In this document: positions 8,897 through 39,367 of the stretch, in pieces
How positions within the stretch are numbered: the stretch's first letter is position 1
How the letters are laid out: each line of letters starts with the position of its first letter
NCBI GenBank assembly: GCA_017507905.1
Contig: JAFWAA010000027.1
Location: forward strand, 1-41,229
Reading direction: 5' to 3'
Source: Clostridia bacterium
GTDB lineage: Bacteria; Bacillota; Clostridia; Oscillospirales; CAG-272
DNA length: 41,229 nucleotides
The notes under the pieces: generated by a model
Seen by the model: only the letters and a program-made list of their open reading frames with translations
Told to the model about the DNA's origin: nothing
The model's database searches: none
Made by a program: the position numbers and the translations under genes

Positions 8897-10219
8897 ATGC
8901 CGTTTTCTTCGCGAACGGTCGGCATTTATACGCTCGGCTGTAAGGTCAATCAATACGAATCCGAGGCGATCGCCGAGGCCCTTGAGGCACGCGAATTTGC
9001 GCTCTGCGCGCCCACCCTTCCCTGCGATGCCTACGTCATCAACACCTGCACGGTAACGGCGGAATCCGACCGCAAGGCAAGGCAGTTCATTCGCCGCGCC
9101 ATTCATCAAAATCCCCGTGCATTCGTGCTGGTCACGGGCTGTCTTGCCCAGACCCAGCCGCATTCGGTCGCCTCGATCCGCGGTGTGGATTGCGTTTGCG
9201 GAAACACCGAAAAGCTCGCCGTCGTAAGGGAGGCCGAGCGCCTCTTTGCCGAGGGCAAAAAGCCGGAGCAGCCCCGCATCCTGCTCTCGCCCCCCGACGC
9301 CAAGGGCTTTGAGCCGATGTGTATCTCTCGCTTTGACCGCACCCGTGCCTACGTCAAGATCGAGGACGGCTGCGAGAACCACTGCACCTACTGCATCATC
9401 CCCGCGGCGCGCGGAAAAGTGCGTTCCAAGGCGCCCGAGGAGGTGCTTGACGAGGTGCGCCGCCTGACCGAGGGCGGCTGTCGCGAGATCGTTCTGACCG
9501 GCATTGAGACCGCCTCCTACGGCAAGGATCTTGCCAACGGCTACGGCCTTGCCGATCTGCTTGAGGCGGTGGACCGCATCCCCGGGATCGGCCGCATCCG
9601 TCTCGGCTCGCTCGATCCCTCCCTGATGAAGCAATCCTTCGTTGACCGCATCGCGCGCCTTCCCTCGTTGGCGCATCACTTTCACGTTTCCATGCAAAGC
9701 GGCTCCGACCGCATTCTCGCGCTGATGAAGCGCAAGTACAACCGCCAAATGGCTCTGGACGGCATGGAGCGTCTGCGCCGAGCCATGCCCGACGTGCAAT
9801 TCACCACCGACATCATCGTCGGCTTCCCCGGGGAGAGTGAGGAGGACTTCCTCCAAACGGTGGATCTGGCACGCCGCGCACGCTTTTTGATGATCCACGT
9901 CTTTCCCTATTCGGGAAGAAGCGGCACCCCCGCCGCGGGAATGCCCGGGCAGATCCCCACCGAGGAAAAGCGCCGCCGCGTTTCCGCACTCTCGGCCGTT
10001 GCCGCCGAGATCCGCGAGGAGCTGCTTGCCGAAATGCAGGGCAAGACCGTTGAGGTCCTCTTTGAGACCGACGAAAAGGGCTTCAGCCGCGGACACACCG
10101 CAAGCTTTATTGAGGTGCATTGTCCCACCGAGCGCCCGATGCAGGGAGAAACGGGGACAGCCCGCATCACCTCCTGTCGGGAGGGCTTCTGCATCGGTAC
10201 GCTGATCACAAAGTCCTAA
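8897..10219 (+). CDS. mtaB: tRNA t6A37 methylthiotransferase MtaB
   Basis: A 440-aa radical-SAM methylthiotransferase. The N-terminal UPF0004 domain binds one 4Fe-4S cluster through C15 ([10 protein letters not shown]), C51 (NTCTVT) and C82 (TGCLAQ). The radical-SAM cluster motif CENHCTYC gives C159, C163 and C166, and a C-terminal TRAM-like region follows. The LGCKVNQ and NTCTVT wording fits MtaB (converts t6A37 to ms2t6A37 in ANN-reading tRNAs) better than MiaB or RimO. The substrate is made by the pathway of tsaE and tsaB, which lie downstream on the same strand. Confidence 0.93.
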
Positions 10220-10277: not shown

Positions 10278-12395
10278 ATGGAAAACAAAGGACTTGTACG
10301 CGGCTTTGGCTCGTACTCGGCCTCGCAGCTCGAAAAGGTGCGCGCCGACCTCGGCATAAGCATGCCGCTGTCTCTTTTGACGCGCTGTGCCACCTACTAC
10401 CGCAACTATCTCAAGCGCGATCCCTCCGTCGAGGAGCTGAAGCTTCTGGATCTCTTTTCCGCACGTCTTGGCACCTCTCCCGACGCCCTTTCCCTGACCG
10501 AGCTTTCCTCGCCCGACGAGTTTGTCCTGGGGACCTATGCAGACTGTCTGCGCAAGAGAAAGACCGTAAAGCCGAATGCCCCCGCGCACCCCTCCCTCAA
10601 GGAGATCGTTGAGATCACGGGAGCCTACCAGGCACGCCTTGGACACAGAAAACCCGAGGATCACAGCGCCGTGCTGATCCCCGAGGATCGCACCGCCTGC
10701 TTTGCCTCCTCGCTTGCCCCCAACTGTCTGTCCATCGTGGGATCTCCCGCACAGCTTCGCGTTTTGCCCGAGGGAACGCGCCGCATAAGCAAGGACGACG
10801 ACCGCATTCTTCTGCTCTCCTCCCCCTCGGAAAGCTCCCCCATACAGTACCAGCTCGCCATCGGTGAGCTGCTCAACGACAAGGAGCTGACCGACCGCCT
10901 CATCGGTCTGCGCACCGTTGGCGCCTACGGCCTGCTCTACGATCTGCTCTTCCTGACCGAAAGCGTTTGGCTTGACGTCTCCTGCCTCTCTCGCGTCCGC
11001 GAGACGGTGCCGCTGAGGCTCCTGGCCGCAGGCTACGCGGGGGACCGCCTGATCCGCGTATCCGCACCCGACGTTCCCACCGTTCTTTCCCTGTGCCGAA
11101 GCTACGGCGTTCGTGCCTCGGTCTTCGGGATCACCACGGCCGACGGCAAGATCCGCATCTCCAATCAGCACAGCCCCGACGTCCTGCTCGATGCCGAGCT
11201 TCTTCGTATGCTCTGCCCCGTAACGCCCTTTGGCGCGCACCTGGCAAGCGAGGATCCCGCAGCTCCGCTGCATATCTCGCATACCTGCGTATACAACGGT
11301 CAGTGCGCTTATCTGGCCGGGGACGCAGCCCCCACGAAGGAGTCGCTCTCCCTGCTTTCCCACGTTCACGCCGGCGGCTACGTGGAGGCAAAGGCCTCTC
11401 CCTTCCTGCAAACCGTTTACGCTACCGTGGCCCCGCTTTGCGCCCTGGCCGTTTCAGGCTGTGGCTTTGGCGAGATCACGCTTCGCCCGAGCATGACCGT
11501 GCCGCCTTTTTCGAAGGACGAGCAAGAAAATGCTTCGGCGACCTCCGCGCTTCTCGGCTTTTATCGCGTGCAATCCGAGCTTGGTATTCACTCGGCGGGC
11601 CTGAGTCTGATCAGCGACGAGCGCGCGCGGACGACCAAATTCTCGGTCTTTGCCGACGCCCTTGGCACATCCTGCCCGAGCCAATTCTCCACGGCGGGAA
11701 CGCGCGTCTACCTCTGGCAGCTCTCGGTGCAGGCAAATGGGCTTCCCGATTTTGCCATGCTCCGCCGCGATCTGAACTTCATCGCGGATCTGCGCCGAAA
11801 GGGCAACCTGCTCAGCGCACGTCTGCTCTGCGAGGAATCCCTGACCGACGGACTGAAGGCTATGCAGAGCGAGGCGCTTTCCTGCCGCATCAAGAACGGC
11901 AGGACCGTGAGCGATCCGCCCTATCGGCTGGCACTGCTCCTGGAGACCAACGTCTTTATCCCGGCCGTGGTGGTCGGTGCCGTTATTCCTGCCCAGAAGA
12001 AGGCCGAAAGCGTCGCTTCTACATCTGCTATCCCCGGCCCCGGGGAGTCGCGCATCTGGTCCGAGCGTCCCGAGATCTCTCTGCTTTCTGCCGCAAACGA
12101 TCTCTCGGCGCAGATCCTGACCGCGATCCTCAACCGCAAGGGAGCAAACGCGCGCCTCTTTACCGCGCAGGGCTCGGAGGAGCTTTCGCGTGCGATCCTC
12201 GGCTCGCAGGTGCTGATCCTGTGCGGCAGGATCTCTCTCCCCAAGACCGCGCAGGTCGACTTTGCCGTGGAAACGTTGCACAAGTCCGGCGGCGTGATCC
12301 TCTCCGTGGGAAGCACCTCGCAGGAGTCGGATTTCTCCTTTGAGGGCGGAATTCCGAGCGACGTTTTGGATAAAATCTGCTCCTTTTCCGAATAA
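10278..12395 (+). CDS. Degenerate PurL-like protein (probable pseudoenzyme)
   Basis: A 705-aa intact ORF with AAAGGAGA upstream of its ATG, 58 bases after mtaB. It aligns collinearly with the genuine PurL of this window. Residues 18-50 match PurL 176-208 without gaps, including KRDP. Residues 424-446 match 750-772 (ALLGxxRxQxELGIxS). Residues 488-529 match 821-862, and 597-628 match 965-996. The catalytic elements are gone. The HCRHT region is replaced, there is no ETHNHPTE counterpart (about 100 residues shorter there), GGKDSM becomes GLSLIS, and the glutaminase cysteine C1070 corresponds to G678. The terminal SHGEGRF part is absent. FGAM synthase activity is therefore unlikely. The fold is inferred; the function is unknown, perhaps scaffolding or ligand sensing. 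Confidence 0.82.
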   Translation: MENKGLVRGFGSYSASQLEKVRADLGISMPLSLLTRCATYYRNYLKRDPSVEELKLLDLFSARLGTSPDALSLTELSSPDEFVLGTYADCLRKRKTVKPNAPAHPSLKEIVEITGAYQARLGHRKPEDHSAVLIPEDRTACFASSLAPNCLSIVGSPAQLRVLPEGTRRISKDDDRILLLSSPSESSPIQYQLAIGELLNDKELTDRLIGLRTVGAYGLLYDLLFLTESVWLDVSCLSRVRETVPLRLLAAGYAGDRLIRVSAPDVPTVLSLCRSYGVRASVFGITTADGKIRISNQHSPDVLLDAELLRMLCPVTPFGAHLASEDPAAPLHISHTCVYNGQCAYLAGDAAPTKESLSLLSHVHAGGYVEAKASPFLQTVYATVAPLCALAVSGCGFGEITLRPSMTVPPFSKDEQENASATSALLGFYRVQSELGIHSAGLSLISDERARTTKFSVFADALGTSCPSQFSTAGTRVYLWQLSVQANGLPDFAMLRRDLNFIADLRRKGNLLSARLLCEESLTDGLKAMQSEALSCRIKNGRTVSDPPYRLALLLETNVFIPAVVVGAVIPAQKKAESVASTSAIPGPGESRIWSERPEISLLSAANDLSAQILTAILNRKGANARLFTAQGSEELSRAILGSQVLILCGRISLPKTAQVDFAVETLHKSGGVILSVGSTSQESDFSFEGGIPSDVLDKICSFSE

Positions 12396-12533: not shown

Positions 12534-12704
12534 ATGGCAAAATGTTGCATCTGTGGCAAAGGCGTTGTGTTCGGTCAGAATGTGTCCCACTCTCACCGCA
12601 AGACCAACAGAACCTGGAAGCCGAATATTCGCAAAGTGAAACTGGAAGGCAGCAAAGCGATCTACGTTTGCTCTCGTTGCCTGCGCACTATGAAGAAAGC
12701 ATAA
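12534..12704 (+). CDS. rpmB: 50S ribosomal protein L28
   Basis: A 56-aa small basic protein of the large ribosomal subunit. It starts MAKCCICGKG and continues with SHSHRKTNRTWKPN, the L28 signature. Four cysteines in two pairs (C4/C7 and C46/C49) make it the zinc-binding (C+) version. The ATG at 12534 follows AGGAGG at 12520-12525. The gene is monocistronic, between its own promoter and a strong terminator. Confidence 0.97.
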   Translation: MAKCCICGKGVVFGQNVSHSHRKTNRTWKPNIRKVKLEGSKAIYVCSRCLRTMKKA

Positions 12705-12728
12705 TTGCAGATCCTGCAATCAAGAATA

Positions 12729-12758
12729 ATGGCAGACACGGCGTGTCTGCCATTTTTT
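12729..12758 (+). terminator. Terminator of rpmB
   Basis: 11-bp stem 12729-12739 / 12743-12753 (ATGGCAGACAC with GTGTCTGCCAT), followed by a run of six T ending at 12758. Confidence 0.93.
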
Positions 12759-12800
12759 CTACCCTCTCGTTTTTTCCATTTCAACGCAAGGAGGTTCCCC

Positions 12801-13022
12801 ATGGAACAGGCAAAGATCGATCGCATCAACGAGCTCGCAAGAAAATCCAAGGAGCAGCCCCTCTCTCCCGAGGAGGCCGCCGAGCAAAAGGCTCTGCGTG
12901 AGGAATATATCGCCGAATTTCGCGCAAGCTTTGGCGGTATTCTCGCCAACACCGTGGTGCAGTATCCCGACGGCAGCAGACGCTCCCTCGAGGACATCAA
13001 AAACGACAAGCAAAAAAAATAA
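12801..13022 (+). CDS. DUF896 / YnzC family protein
   Basis: A 73-aa protein of the DUF896 family (Bacillus YnzC), found almost only in Firmicutes. The family pattern is clear: IDRINELARKSKE, then LSPEEAAEQKALREEYIAEFR, a short helical hairpin. The start is ATG 12801 with AAGGAGG at 12788-12794. It sits just past the rpmB terminator, and I see no separate strong promoter for it, so it may depend on read-through. The molecular function is not established. Confidence 0.9.
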   Translation: MEQAKIDRINELARKSKEQPLSPEEAAEQKALREEYIAEFRASFGGILANTVVQYPDGSRRSLEDIKNDKQKK

Positions 13023-13143: not shown

Positions 13144-13626
13144 TTGAAGCAGCAGGAAATCATCTATACCGCAGACCCCCAAATGACCGAGGAGGTCGGT
13201 GCGCGTCTTGCCAAGCGTATGCAGGAGGACCCCGCCCTGCCCCCCTTCGTGGCGCTCTACGGCGATCTCGGCGTTGGAAAAACCGCCTTCGTCCGCGGAT
13301 TTGCTTCGGTCTTTTCCCCCGCCGCGGCCGTGCGCTCGCCCACCTTTGCTCTGGTACACGAGTATCGGGGAGGCGGCAAGCAGCTCTTCCATTTTGATAT
13401 GTACCGCATCGATTCGGAGGAGGATCTTCTTTCCATCGGCTTTTACGACTATTGGGACAGAAACGGGATCTGCCTTGTCGAATGGAGCGAAAAGATCCCC
13501 TACGCCCTTCCCGAGGCGTATATCCGTGTTCTGATCGAAAAGAACGATCCCTCTTGCCCCGAGAGTCGAAGGATCACTCTGCAAGAGATCCGTGAGGAGT
13601 GTGCACATGAAAATTTTAGCTCTTGA
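13144..13626 (+). CDS. tsaE: tRNA t6A biosynthesis ATPase TsaE
   Basis: A 160-aa P-loop ATPase with Walker A GDLGVGKT at residues 40-47 and the SPTF(A)LVHEY segment typical of the family. It cycles the TsaB-TsaD complex during threonylcarbamoyl transfer to A37 of tRNAs. The start is TTG at 13144, decided by AAAGGAGG at 13128-13135 with an 8-base spacing; no ATG or GTG fits. It overlaps tsaB by 20 bases. Confidence 0.95.
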   Translation: MKQQEIIYTADPQMTEEVGARLAKRMQEDPALPPFVALYGDLGVGKTAFVRGFASVFSPAAAVRSPTFALVHEYRGGGKQLFHFDMYRIDSEEDLLSIGFYDYWDRNGICLVEWSEKIPYALPEAYIRVLIEKNDPSCPESRRITLQEIREECAHENFSS

Positions 13627-32200: not shown

Positions 32201-32240
32201 CCCCTTCCGCCCGGAATGCCCATAGCGGTCCTTTTGGAAA

Positions 32241-32404
32241 AGTGGATAGCGCTCCGCATCTCTGCGACAACAGGACGGATCTTCTCCGTACTGCCAGAAG
32301 CGATCCTGCGCAAGAACCGTTCTTCGGCACCCGACCCTTTCTCCGCCGCAACGTCCGCGCCGACTTGGCACGGCGGTTACTCTTTTCTGGGTGCGCCTCT
32401 ATCA
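32241..32404 (-). promoter_or_regulatory. Lysine riboswitch (L box)
   Basis: The minus-strand leader begins GATAGAGGCGC and contains in order the L-box consensus pieces: AGAGTA, GAAAGGGTCGG, GGTGCCGAAG, CTGGCAGTACGG, and the closing GGAGCGCTATCC. GATAG (5') pairs with CTATC (3') to form P1. The same block order is found in the Bacillus lysC leader. It sits between the promoter and dapA and controls lysine and diaminopimelate synthesis. I found no T-box signature (AGGGTGGNACCGCG). Confidence 0.87.
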
Positions 32405-32413
32405 TTTTTTGTC

Positions 32414-34379: not shown

Positions 34380-37300
34380 TCAGTTCTTAAAATAGCTTAC
34401 TGCAGAGCGGAACATTCCGATCTCAAAGTCACCGGGAACGTTCTTGTACAGACCGTTTCCGATACGCTCGGAGTGTCCCATCTTACCGAATACGCGTCCG
34501 TCGGGCGAGGTAATGCCCTCGATGGCGCAAGCGGAGTTGTTGGGATTGAAGCGAATATCCGCGGTGGGATTACCCTCGGCGTCCACGTACTGCGTGGCGA
34601 TCTGTCCGTTGGCGGCAAGCTGTGCGATCAGCTCGTCCGAGGCGAGGAAGCGTCCCTCACCATGCGAGATCGGCACCGTGACGATATCGCCGACGTGACG
34701 CTCTGCCAGCCAAGGAGACTTGACCGAGCAGATGCGCGTGCGCACAAGTCTCGACTGGTGACGTCCAATGGTGTTGTAGGTCAAGGTGGGACAATTCTCG
34801 TCGGTGTCGATGATCCTGCCGTACGGCACAAGGCCCAGCTTGATCAGAGCCTGGAAGCCGTTGCAGATGCCTGCCATCAGACCTCCGCGCTGATCCAGCA
34901 GCTCCGTGACCGACTCCTTGACGGCCGCGTTGCGGAAGAAGGCCGTGATGAACTTGCCCGAGCCGTCCGGCTCGTCACCGCCCGAAAAGCCTCCGGGAAT
35001 GAAGATCATCTGCGCATCCTTCACCTTTGCGGCAAACTCCTCGACCGACTGCGAGATCGCGGCCTTGGAAAGGTTGCGGACCAGGAAGATCTCGGGGTCT
35101 GCTCCCGCGTCGGCCAGAGCCTTTGCGGTATCAAACTCGCAGTTGGTTCCCGGGAATGCGGGGATCAATACCTTGGGTCTTGCCACCTTGATCGCGGCGG
35201 AAACGCGCTTGGTATCCGCATAGGCAAAGGTGGGAATATTCGTCTGCGTCTGCTCGATGTTGCAGGCGTAAACGCCCTCGAGCTTGCCCTCGTAGAGTGC
35301 GTTCAGCTCCGTGACGGAAACCGTCTCGCCGCCAAGCGTGAGGGTATCGCCGTCGGTAAAGAAGCCGACCGTCTGTCCCTCGGTATCGGCGTCCACCTCA
35401 AGCAGGAAGGAGCCGTAGGCATAGCCGAAGATATCCGCCTTGGTGAGCGACGGATCATAGGCAAAGCCAAGTCCGTTGCCAATGCACATCTTGTAGACCG
35501 CCTCGGCAATGCCGCCGTAGGTGGGCGTGTAGGCCGCGTAGACCTTTCCCTGACGCATCAGCGCCGTCACCTTGTCAAAGGTTGCCAAAAGGGACTCTGC
35601 CACGGGCAGTCCGTCCTCGCCGTAGGCGGGAGCAAGCGAGATCAGCTTGTGCCCTGCGGCCTTGGCGTCGTTGGTAACGATCTCGTCGGTCTTTCCCGTG
35701 GTCACGGCGAAGGAGACGAGCGTGGGAGGCACGTTGATCTGCTCGAAGGTGCCCGACATGGAGTCCTTTCCGCCGATCGAGGCGATGCCAAGCTCCAGCT
35801 GTGCGCGGAAAGCGCCAAGGAGGGCCGCCAGAGGCTTGCCCCAGCGCTTGCCGTCCTTCATGGGCTTCTCAAAATACTCCTGGAAGGTCAGGTAAACGTC
35901 CTCAAAGGACGCACCCGTAGCGATCAGCTTGGAGACCGACTCCACAACGGCAAGATAGGCGCTGTGGTAGGGGCTCTGCTCGGCAATATAGGGGTTGTAG
36001 CCCCAAGCCATCAGGGAGCAGGCGTCGGTGTGCTTCTTCTCTACCGAGATCTTATGCACCATTGCCTGAATGGGCGTTTGCTGATGCTTGCCGCCAAAGG
36101 GCATAAGCACGGTTCCCGCGCCGATGGTGGAGTCAAAGCGCTCGGAAAGTCCACGCTTAGAGCAGACGTTCAGATCCGAGACCAATGCGCGATAGCCCTC
36201 GTCGAAGGTCTCGGGGATCTCCTTCTCCGAGAGTGCGGGTGCCGCGGGGGTAACGTCAATGTGCTTCTCTGCACCGTTGGAATTGAGGAACTCGCGGGAG
36301 ACGTCCACGATCCGCACGCCGTTCCAGGTCATGGTCAGACGCGCATCCTCCTTGACCGTGGCAACCACGGTGGCCTCCAGGTTTTCGGAGGCGGCAAGCG
36401 CCAGGAAGCGGTCAACGTCCTTTGCCTCGACCACGACGGCCATTCTCTCCTGCGACTCGGAGATCGCAAGCTCAGTGCCGTCAAGACCGTCGTACTTCTT
36501 GGGTACGGCGTTCAGATCAATGTCCAGACCGTCGGCCAGCTCGCCGATGGCGACCGAAACGCCTCCGGCGCCAAAGTCGTTGCAGCGCTTGATCAGTCGG
36601 CAGGCCTCGGCGTTGCGGAACAGACGCTGGAGCTTGCGCTCCTCGGGTGCATTACCCTTCTGTACCTCGGCACCGCAGGTCTCAAGCGATTGCAGGGTGT
36701 GCGACTTGGAGGAGCCCGTTGCACCGCCGCAGCCGTCGCGTCCCGTGCGTCCGCCAAGAAGGATCACCTTATCTCCGGGCGTCGGGCACTCGCGGCGCAC
36801 GTTCTCCGCAGGAGTGGCGGCGATCACGGCACCGATCTCCATACGCTTTGCGGCATATCCTGCGTGATAGAGCTCGTCCACCTGTCCCGTGGCAAGTCCG
36901 ATCTGGTTTCCGTAGGAGGAATATCCCGCCGCTGCCGTGGTCACAATCTTGCGCTGAGGCAGCTTGCCGGGGATAGTATCGCCCACGGGAACCGTGGGAT
37001 CTGCCGCACCGGTCACGCGCATGGCGGCGTAGACGTAGGAGCGGCCCGAGAGCGGGTCGCGGATCGCGCCGCCGATGCAGGTAGCCGCACCGCCGAAGGG
37101 CTCGATCTCGGTGGGATGGTTGTGGGTCTCATTCTTGAAGAGGAGCAGCCAGGGCTCCTTCTTGCCGTCCACCTCGATCTCCATCTTGACGGTGCAGGCG
37201 TTGATCTCCTCGGACTCGTCCAGCTTTTGCAGCTTTCCGGTCTTCTTGAGATAGCGCGTGGCAAGCGTGGCGATGTCCATGAGGTTAACGGGCTTCGTGC

Positions 37301-38072
37301 GGCCGAGCTCGCGGCGCACGTTGAGATAATCCTGATAGGTCTTTTCCATCATCGGATCGGCAAAGGTCACGCTGTCGATCGTCGTCAGGAAGGTGGTGTG
37401 ACGGCAGTGATCCGACCAATAGGTATCGATCATACGGATCTCGGTGATGGTGGGATCGCGCTTCTCCTCGTCGCGGAAGTAGCCCTGCAGGAACGCGATA
37501 TCGTCGGCGTCCATGGCAAGTCCCTTCTCCTTGACGAAGGCGGCAAGTCCCTCGGCATCCAGTGCCGTAAAGCCGTCGAGGATCTCCACCGTCGTGGGGA
37601 TCTCGGTCTCCAGAGCCAGCGTTTGGGCTTTCTCGAGAGAGGCCTCGCGGCACTCGACGGGGTTGATGACGTATTTCTTGATCTGCGCAAGCTCGCCTTC
37701 ACTCAGCTCTCCGTAGAGCAGATAGACCTTTGCCGTGCGCACGGTGGGACGCTCGCCCTGCGAAAGGATCTGAATGCACTGCGCCGCGCTGTCGGCCCTC
37801 TGGTCGAACTGACCGGGCAGATACTCCACGGCAAACACGGTCGCACCGGTTGCATCAAAGGCATCGCTCACCACGTCCAGCTGAGGCTCGGAAAAGACCT
37901 TTCCCTTGCAATCCTCAAAGAGCGCCTCGTCGATGCTCTCCACGTCGTGGCGGTTGAGAATGCGAACGTCGGTAAGCGAGCGGATTTGCAAGAGATGGCG
38001 GATCTCATCGCGCAAGGAGGAGGCCTCGTGGGCAAGCTCCTTTTTCTTTTCAACGTATACTCTGTAAACCAT
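34380..38072 (-). CDS. purL: Phosphoribosylformylglycinamidine synthase, long single-chain form
   Basis: A 1230-aa FGAM synthase converting FGAR, glutamine and ATP to FGAM. In order: a PurS-like N-terminal region, the linker with DHCRHT (H222-T226), the first AIRS pair with ETHNHPTE (315-322), the second AIRS pair with GGKDSM (767-772), and the glutaminase domain with AGICNGFQ (C1070) and SHGEG (1137 onward). All catalytic parts are present. The size is that of the single-chain type, not split PurS/PurL/PurQ. The start is the ATG at 38072, 23 bases after purD. It is the template against which the PurL-like protein at 10278 can be compared. Confidence 0.97.
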   Translation of the reverse strand: MVYRVYVEKKKELAHEASSLRDEIRHLLQIRSLTDVRILNRHDVESIDEALFEDCKGKVFSEPQLDVVSDAFDATGATVFAVEYLPGQFDQRADSAAQCIQILSQGERPTVRTAKVYLLYGELSEGELAQIKKYVINPVECREASLEKAQTLALETEIPTTVEILDGFTALDAEGLAAFVKEKGLAMDADDIAFLQGYFRDEEKRDPTITEIRMIDTYWSDHCRHTTFLTTIDSVTFADPMMEKTYQDYLNVRRELGRTKPVNLMDIATLATRYLKKTGKLQKLDESEEINACTVKMEIEVDGKKEPWLLLFKNETHNHPTEIEPFGGAATCIGGAIRDPLSGRSYVYAAMRVTGAADPTVPVGDTIPGKLPQRKIVTTAAAGYSSYGNQIGLATGQVDELYHAGYAAKRMEIGAVIAATPAENVRRECPTPGDKVILLGGRTGRDGCGGATGSSKSHTLQSLETCGAEVQKGNAPEERKLQRLFRNAEACRLIKRCNDFGAGGVSVAIGELADGLDIDLNAVPKKYDGLDGTELAISESQERMAVVVEAKDVDRFLALAASENLEATVVATVKEDARLTMTWNGVRIVDVSREFLNSNGAEKHIDVTPAAPALSEKEIPETFDEGYRALVSDLNVCSKRGLSERFDSTIGAGTVLMPFGGKHQQTPIQAMVHKISVEKKHTDACSLMAWGYNPYIAEQSPYHSAYLAVVESVSKLIATGASFEDVYLTFQEYFEKPMKDGKRWGKPLAALLGAFRAQLELGIASIGGKDSMSGTFEQINVPPTLVSFAVTTGKTDEIVTNDAKAAGHKLISLAPAYGEDGLPVAESLLATFDKVTALMRQGKVYAAYTPTYGGIAEAVYKMCIGNGLGFAYDPSLTKADIFGYAYGSFLLEVDADTEGQTVGFFTDGDTLTLGGETVSVTELNALYEGKLEGVYACNIEQTQTNIPTFAYADTKRVSAAIKVARPKVLIPAFPGTNCEFDTAKALADAGADPEIFLVRNLSKAAISQSVEEFAAKVKDAQMIFIPGGFSGGDEPDGSGKFITAFFRNAAVKESVTELLDQRGGLMAGICNGFQALIKLGLVPYGRIIDTDENCPTLTYNTIGRHQSRLVRTRICSVKSPWLAERHVGDIVTVPISHGEGRFLASDELIAQLAANGQIATQYVDAEGNPTADIRFNPNNSACAIEGITSPDGRVFGKMGHSERIGNGLYKNVPGDFEIGMFRSAVSYFKN

Positions 38073-38095: not shown

Positions 38096-39367
38096 TTATT
38101 TTTGCAACGCGAGCATGGCGCGTGCGCCGATGTCCGAGCGGGTGTAGCCGTTGGCAAAATCCACCCGTCCGACGCGCTCGTAAGCCTTTTGAATGGCGGT
38201 GGGAAGATCGTCGGCAACGGCCGTGACGCCAAGAACGCGTCCGCCTGCACTGACAAGGCCCTCTCCCTCCTGCCTTGCTCCCGCCACGTAGATAAAGCCG
38301 TCGGCATCGTCCTCGGGAAGCGTGAGGGGGCAGCCCGATTCGTATTTTCCGGGATAGCCCTTGGAGGCCATGATCACACAGCAGGCGCTTCCCGCAGAAA
38401 AGCGGACGTCAACGTCGGCAAGCGTGCCGTTCGCGCAGGCCTGCATTACGGTGAGCAGATCGCTCTCCAAAAGAGGCAGGACCACCTGCGTTTCGGGGTC
38501 GCCGAAGCGGCAGTTGTATTCGATGACCTTCGGTCCGTCGGGCGTGAGCATCAGACCAAAGTAGAGGCAACCCTGAAAGGGTCTTCCCTCCGCGTTCATC
38601 GCGGCCACGGTGGGCAGGAAGATGGTCTCCATGCACACCTTGGCGATCTCCTCGGTGTAATAGGGATTGGGGGCAATCGTGCCCATGCCTCCCGTATTGA
38701 GCCCCTGATCGTGATCCAGGGCGCGCTTGTGGTCCATGGAGGAGACCATGGGACGGACGACCTTGCCGTCCGTAAAGGCTAGGACCGAAACCTCGGGACC
38801 GGTGAGGAATTCCTCAATGACGATGCGGGAGCCGCTCTCGCCAAACTGCTTGTCCTCCATCATGGAGCGAACGGCAGACACGGCCTCCTCACGGGTAGAA
38901 GCGATGATCACGCCCTTTCCCAGGGCCAGGCCGTCTGCCTTGATGACCGTGGGAATGGGAGCGCCTTGCAGATAGGCGATCGCCTTCTCTGCCTCGGTAA
39001 AGACCTCGTACCGTGCCGTAGGGATACCGTATTTCTTCATCAAATTCTTGGAAAAGACCTTGCTTCCCTCGATGATGGCCGCATTGGCCCTCGGGCCGAA
39101 GCAAGGGATCCCCTCTGCGTTGAGTGCGTCCACCGCACCCAGCACCAGCGGATCGTCCGGAGCGACCACGGCAAAGTCGATCCTCTCACGCTTTGCAAAA
39201 TCCACGATCGCGGGAATATCCTTGGCGCCGATGGGAACGCAGGTCGCATCCTTGGCAATACCGCCGTTCCCGGGGAGCGCAAAGATCTGCTCGACCGTTG
39301 CGTTCTCCTTCAGCTTTTTGATGATGGCGTGCTCACGGCCGCCACCGCCGACTACCAAAATCTTCAT
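38096..39367 (-). CDS. purD: Phosphoribosylamine-glycine ligase
   Basis: A 423-aa ATP-grasp ligase that makes GAR from phosphoribosylamine, glycine and ATP. It begins MKILVVGGGGREHAI, and has LPGNGGIA, an ATP-grasp centre (IKADGLALGKGV) and YNCRFGDPETQ. Its substrate glycine is produced by glyA just upstream in the operon (21-base gap). Start at the ATG 39367; length is normal. Confidence 0.97.
   Translation of the reverse strand: MKILVVGGGGREHAIIKKLKENATVEQIFALPGNGGIAKDATCVPIGAKDIPAIVDFAKRERIDFAVVAPDDPLVLGAVDALNAEGIPCFGPRANAAIIEGSKVFSKNLMKKYGIPTARYEVFTEAEKAIAYLQGAPIPTVIKADGLALGKGVIIASTREEAVSAVRSMMEDKQFGESGSRIVIEEFLTGPEVSVLAFTDGKVVRPMVSSMDHKRALDHDQGLNTGGMGTIAPNPYYTEEIAKVCMETIFLPTVAAMNAEGRPFQGCLYFGLMLTPDGPKVIEYNCRFGDPETQVVLPLLESDLLTVMQACANGTLADVDVRFSAGSACCVIMASKGYPGKYESGCPLTLPEDDADGFIYVAGARQEGEGLVSAGGRVLGVTAVADDLPTAIQKAYERVGRVDFANGYTRSDIGARAMLALQK

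Follow-up and report, generated by a model that had tools for sequence, protein, structure and literature searches.

Gammaherpesviruses encode pseudo-FGARATs (vGATs), which the relevant passages of one article describe as PurL/PFAS homologues without key catalytic residues that recruit cellular PFAS to deamidate RIG-I (PMC10820379). In the open-licence PMC literature we found no description of a bacterial pseudo-PurL and none of a link between PurL and the tRNA methylthiotransferase MtaB. Here we analyse a stretch of 41,229 nucleotides from a Clostridia bacterium (assembly GCA_017507905.1, contig JAFWAA010000027.1; referred to as the window) that encodes, next to mtaB, a protein of 705 aa denoted X, as well as a PurL with all motifs at a distant position (Table 1). 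The window also contains a lysine riboswitch (32239-32409, minus strand) that adjoins a gene of the DHDPS family, and dapB and a gene for a PLP decarboxylase lie further along. Related genomes and loci are denoted by G and L numbers, respectively.

Table 1. Features of the window related to X, and the basis of each assignment.
Feature	Coordinates	Strand	Basis
mtaB, tRNA methylthiotransferase; ancestral neighbour of purL (putative); directly 5' of X	8897..10219	+	profile match, locus comparison
X, putative PurL-derived pseudoenzyme, 705 aa	10278..12395	+	open frame, TIGR01857 match, profile-profile alignment, shuffle control
X residues 5-130 = PurL 163-290, linker domain and next helices; RDP-EL-LD kept, HCRHT lost	10290..10667	+	profile alignment
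X residues 190-320 = about PurL 484-614, first AIRS half, C-terminal lobe	10845..11237	+	Pfam, profile alignment
X residues 369-570 = about PurL 708-918, second AIRS half; GGKDSM lost, LGxYRxQxELG kept	11382..11987	+	profile alignment
X residues 589-685 = about PurL 957-1077, first half of glutaminase; catalytic Cys lost	12042..12332	+	profile alignment
presumably rpmB, ribosomal protein L28; 3' of X	12534..12704	+	sequence inspection
DUF896 protein, far boundary of the X site	12705..13022	+	Pfam
tsaE	13144..13626	+	Pfam
PurL, 1230 aa, all motifs; presumed replacement copy	34380..38072	-	TIGR01857, motif search
purD, adjoins the window PurL	38096..39367	-	gene annotation of the window

Relation of X to PurL

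The frame of X runs over 705 codons without a stop, is immediately preceded by a ribosome site (AAGGAGAAG) and resembles other genes of the window in composition, with GC and GC3 of 0.62 and 0.76 (mtaB: 0.62 and 0.77; window PurL: 0.61 and 0.78). The model TIGR01857 (FGAM synthase) matches X with an E-value of 3.5e-7 and 28.2 bits, short of its curated cut-off of 1057 bits; 21 of 25 X members match it at E ≤ 0.001, with P0001 far under the cut-off. X-like proteins could be misnamed FGAM synthase by annotation. Pfam assigns AIRS_C alone to X, with an E-value of 0.024 that remains under the Pfam cut-off, and yields no match with E ≤ 0.01 for any of 25 X members. The kinship with PurL would therefore have been missed had Pfam been used alone. 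Searches of PDB sequences with X or an X profile returned no match to PurL. A PurL profile scores 50.6 bits against X, the top score among 500 shuffles of X being 1.1, and hhalign aligns 27 X sequences with 16 PurL sequences (including the degenerate copy of G117 described below) with probability 100 and an E-value of 1.3e-43, along a single co-linear path that connects X 5-685 with PurL 163-1077. A chance likeness is ruled out by the shuffles together with hhalign. As judged from this alignment, X and PurL are of common descent, with their domains in co-linear order.

X lacks the N-terminal domain of PurL (residues 1-162), the greater part of PurL 290-434, where THNHP lies, and the glutaminase domain beyond its first half. 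None of HCRHT, THNHP, GGKDSM and the glutaminase Cys (PurL 1070) is present in X, nor is HGEG of the glutaminase, where the second half of the domain is missing. The linker domain and the helices following it (X 5-130) are among the best conserved parts of the protein. Across the genus, 58 positions of X are conserved, 38 with the PurL consensus residue and 20 with another residue, suggesting that the scaffold has been retained and the active site has not. K93, R430 and R496 are polar, invariant or nearly so, and unlike the PurL consensus. X is, on the evidence of its alignments, a PurL relative without catalytic motifs: homology without catalytic residues, one mark of a pseudoenzyme, is found in X, and the second mark, maintenance by selection, is found inside the genus only.

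These results bear on several claims of a first-pass annotation of the same DNA. The four blocks it shared out between X and PurL (starting at 18/176, 424/750, 488/821 and 597/965) all lie on the hhalign path in the same register, the loss of HCRHT, THNHP, GGKDSM and the glutaminase Cys is borne out by alignment and motif search, and its description of an open frame of 705 codons with a ribosome site and neighbour-like GC stands. The designation of X as full-length was wrong, as PurL 163-1077 is covered with a large gap.

Distribution and selection

The 26 loci of the genus besides the window were chosen by their match to X, as were those of G051, G058, G035, G039, G048 and G059. A further 80 loci (L071-L150) were hand-picked from mtaB matches and comprise 17 with an X-type protein, 13 with a full-size linked PurL, 49 with neither, and one without downstream sequence. 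In total, 113 loci contain mtaB, and 112 have a downstream frame. Tested per locus were the largest frame starting no more than 700 bases from mtaB and the tails of over-long mtaB frames, a test to which a relocated X is invisible. The genomes are mostly incomplete and derive from metagenome or other assemblies; related assemblies are metagenomes (Clostridia, Clostridiales, Oscillospiraceae), several of them of ruminant gut origin. Alignment A1 holds 25 of the 27 genus sequences, excluding the broken copy of G012 and the contig-cut copy of G015; alignment A3 excludes L152 (stops) and L170 (short match).

X is found in 27 of the 35 genomes of the genus. Of the proposed gene order mtaB-X-rpmB, the first part is found in all 27 loci, with X directly after mtaB, and DUF896 and tsaE follow X in 19 of them. 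The contig ends within about 1 kb of X in five loci (G006, G012, G015, G026 and G029), and DUF896 and tsaE were not found in the stretch fetched for G002, G014 and G028. In G011, G021 and G033 the rpmB/DUF896/tsaE block stands directly after mtaB, a clean loss of X. X has probably been lost in G024 too, where mtaB lies near a contig end and the roughly 290 bases left after it match the rpmB stretch. The contig of G001 stops inside mtaB, and G004, G010 and G027 have only weaker matches to the mtaB family. X is dispensable, having been lost by three or four members of the genus.

Outside the genus, 21 further X-type proteins follow mtaB, 20 in the same family and a weak one (G078) in another; G128 and G078 were recovered solely through an iterated profile. 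The 48 X-type proteins range from 378 to 980 aa (G012, with 542 aa, is counted by the larger part of its interrupted frame). None contains any of the five catalytic motifs searched, so that the loss of motifs is common to all 48. When 295 genomes of the order were searched with a strict cut-off, X-type proteins were returned from the window's family only, although weak members escape at this setting (G105 and G157, known from the locus comparison, were not returned). The sole match outside the family, a frame of 1253 aa in G218, looks like an ordinary PurL. No X was found beside mtaB in G036, G101, G153, G162, G163 and G180, near relatives of X-bearing genera.

Selection was estimated from dN/dS ratios of loci within the genus. 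Between the window and its nearest relative G008 (84% identity), dN/dS of X is 0.18 (bootstrap 0.14-0.23), with values of 0.05-0.14 for six neighbouring genes. Six pairs among G006, G014, G017 and G028, in none of which a PurL was found, give 0.20-0.32 for X and 0.11-0.19 for mtaB, rough values at a dS of X of 1.1-1.5. In all seven pairs compared with mtaB (G020-G034 included) the estimate for X is the higher one, once by only 0.20 versus 0.19, and the bootstrap ranges are separate in three pairs, touching in one and overlapping in three. In 282 of 300 pairs of the genus dS exceeds 1.5 or is saturated. Internal stops are absent from 26 of the 27 genus copies at identities of 27-84%, the contig-cut copy of G015 among them, and the copy of G012 has two in-frame stops. 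The single stops scored in G006, G007, G014, G028 and G030 arise where the profile match runs beyond the end of the frame. X is constrained, as a rule less than its neighbour genes. A neutral pseudogene, the outcome against which dN/dS and broken frames had been proposed as a check, is ruled out for the genus by the dN/dS of 0.18 and by the constraint in genomes without PurL.

X is also retained in assemblies in which enzymes of purine synthesis were not found. PurL was not found in seven of the 27 X-bearing genomes of the genus (G006, G014, G015, G017, G019, G028 and G031). In G014, G017, G028 and G031 the match to the PurF model is confined to the first 200-odd model positions, and we take the matching frames, of 611-635 aa, to be GlmS; G006 shows no match to the PurF model at all, and longer matches are present in G015 and G019. 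The assemblies are incomplete (G014 95%, G028 92%, G031 84%, G017 71% and G006 61%), and all of these cases may go back to one loss event. That X occurs in assemblies with no detectable PurL or PurF counts against its being a partner of either protein. Neither a PurL match nor a full PurF match was obtained for G011, G014, G017, G021, G028, G031 and G033, which are possibly purine auxotrophs.

The mtaB-linked purL and the origin of X

A full-size PurL is encoded directly after mtaB in 15 of the 112 loci, ten from the window's family (G048, G059, G103, G106, G107, G108, G113, G117, G119 and G126) and one from each of five other families (G066, G067, G092, G206 and G064). HCRHT, THNHP and GGKDSM are kept in 14 of the 15 copies. 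Since purL follows mtaB in 14 loci of six families, the order mtaB-purL looks ancestral. The linked copy of G117 (1367 aa) spans the whole PurL profile, to which G117 itself contributes a sequence; it has lost THNHP, the glutaminase Cys and HGEG and has kept HCRH and GGKDSM. A second, normal PurL is encoded elsewhere in that genome. A separate observation concerns the linked PurL of G064 (L150, 1284 aa), the sole PurL match in its genome at E ≤ 1e-30: the three synthase motifs are kept, the elbow reads GLGGGFQ without Cys, and HGEG is replaced by YGEG. L150 is apparently a glutaminase-dead PurL.

A separate PurL was found in each of the 21 genomes with an X-type protein outside the genus, in two of them as a partial match only. 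The nine genomes of the family with an intact linked PurL are without a second full copy, with an extra fragment of 118 aa in G106; the search for second copies left out G092 and G206. A tree was built from 43 complete or almost complete proteins, the partial PurL of G010 being dropped. In it the window-type PurL forms a clade of 24 tips (support 100) to which other families also contribute; the linked copy of G117 and the nine intact linked copies of the family fall outside. The linked PurL of G206 is an exception and sits inside this clade. When X is included in the tree, its members sit on long branches that fail to group together, leaving the attachment of X unplaced. The PurL copies of G002, G023, G026 and G032 (L174 and L171-L173) sit on another branch of the clade, beside G072 from another family, which suggests that PurL has been replaced horizontally more than once in a single genus.

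The simplest account is that PurL was replaced more than once and that X is what became of the old linked copy. An origin of X from a displaced mtaB-linked purL is very probable, and the window PurL, located beside purD, looks like a newcomer. The relationship given by the first-pass annotation, namely that X is a paralogue of the genuine PurL of the window, is thereby reversed, with X at the old purL site. Of the non-catalytic paralogue it proposed, two points hold, namely that X is related to PurL but lacks the catalytic residues and that purifying selection acts on it in the genus.

Proposed function and comparison with known systems

We propose that a second PurL took over FGAM synthesis in the window's lineage, and that the old mtaB-linked purL was then retired, lost its catalytic motifs and became X. 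X would have been retained as a non-catalytic binding protein, scaffold or regulator, still folded as linker and AIRS core with half a glutaminase, and its conserved surfaces would be formed by the helices of the linker and by the segments LGxYRxQxELG and GLPDFxxLR. We consider it probable that X is the old linked purL, retired after replacement and kept as a pseudoenzyme, and equally probable that X has a selected non-catalytic function. The leading candidate for a partner, put forward tentatively, would be MtaB, because mtaB and X abut and because G058 (L058 4977-7670, plus strand, in a 71%-complete assembly) encodes MtaB and an X-type protein in one open frame of 897 aa. The distance correlation of X and MtaB is not specific (partial r of 0.38, versus 0.59 for lnt). 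The order mtaB-X is inherited from mtaB-purL, hence adjacency says little about a shared function, and the earlier suggestion of a tie to the translation-gene neighbours is weakened. A more speculative version, which we regard as rather doubtful, is that the displaced PurL became an accessory to tRNA modification by MtaB, or to another translation-linked process, and outlived the purine pathway, with related genera keeping a domain-by-domain series that begins with the full-length pseudo-PurL of G117 and runs down to cores of some 450 aa.

X might also be a slowly eroding relic, with selection acting only against misfolded products or disturbance of the mtaB operon. The graded lengths of 378-980 aa, the patchy absence with three or four clean losses, the stops in G012 and the point estimates of dN/dS above those of mtaB in every pair are compatible with erosion; the upper bound of 0.23 on dN/dS, the intact frames of 26 of 27 divergent copies, the 20 conserved positions that depart from the PurL consensus and the continued constraint in genomes without detectable PurL argue against it, and we consider a relic unlikely. 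Pseudoenzymes often regulate active relatives, and X is homologous to PurL and accompanied by a PurL match in 20 of the 27 X-bearing genomes of the genus. A role as partner or regulator of PurL or PurF, as suggested in the first-pass annotation, is nevertheless not supported, and has the slightest chance of the readings considered, because X is retained and still constrained where neither protein is detectable, including the largely complete assemblies of G014 and G028.

A lineage-specific duplicate of the window PurL that landed beside mtaB by chance would agree with the shared TIGR01857 type, the unsettled attachment point of X and the position of the linked G206 PurL inside the window-type clade. 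Against such a duplicate, purL occupies the site after mtaB in six families and the full-length degenerate copy of G117 falls outside the window-type clade, which makes it highly improbable. The invariant or nearly invariant K93, R430 and R496 could hint at a new catalytic activity on the AIRS scaffold, but large parts of the ATP/FGAR region are missing, and the length spread between genera makes a common active site hard to keep; we deem this very improbable. The preferred reading thus remains the retired, mtaB-linked purL kept for a non-catalytic role.

Pseudoenzymes are usually viewed as end products. In these gut bacteria the steps seem to be preserved: a working enzyme at the site, a full-length protein that has lost most motifs, shortened proteins of widely varying size, and clean removal of the gene. 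As X survives where PurL and PurF were not found, the purpose of a dead metabolic enzyme becomes a testable question.

Among known systems, MtaB (tRNA ms2t6A methylthiotransferase) is the gene neighbour of X in the fetched X-type loci, with the one in-frame fusion in G058, and as a radical SAM protein belongs to a family other than that of X. The nearest named parallel, likened by description in the passages cited above, is vGAT, both being PurL homologues without key catalytic residues. vGAT is viral, whereas X is bacterial and retained in assemblies without detectable PurL; with seven such assemblies in the genus, recruitment of an active PurL cannot be the only mode of X. PurL of the TIGR01857 type differs from X in its catalytic motifs, its N-terminal domain and its length (1230 versus 705 aa), and shares with it a co-linear series of domains made up of the linker, the two AIRS halves and the first glutaminase half, as well as, for the linked PurL of other genera, the position of the gene.
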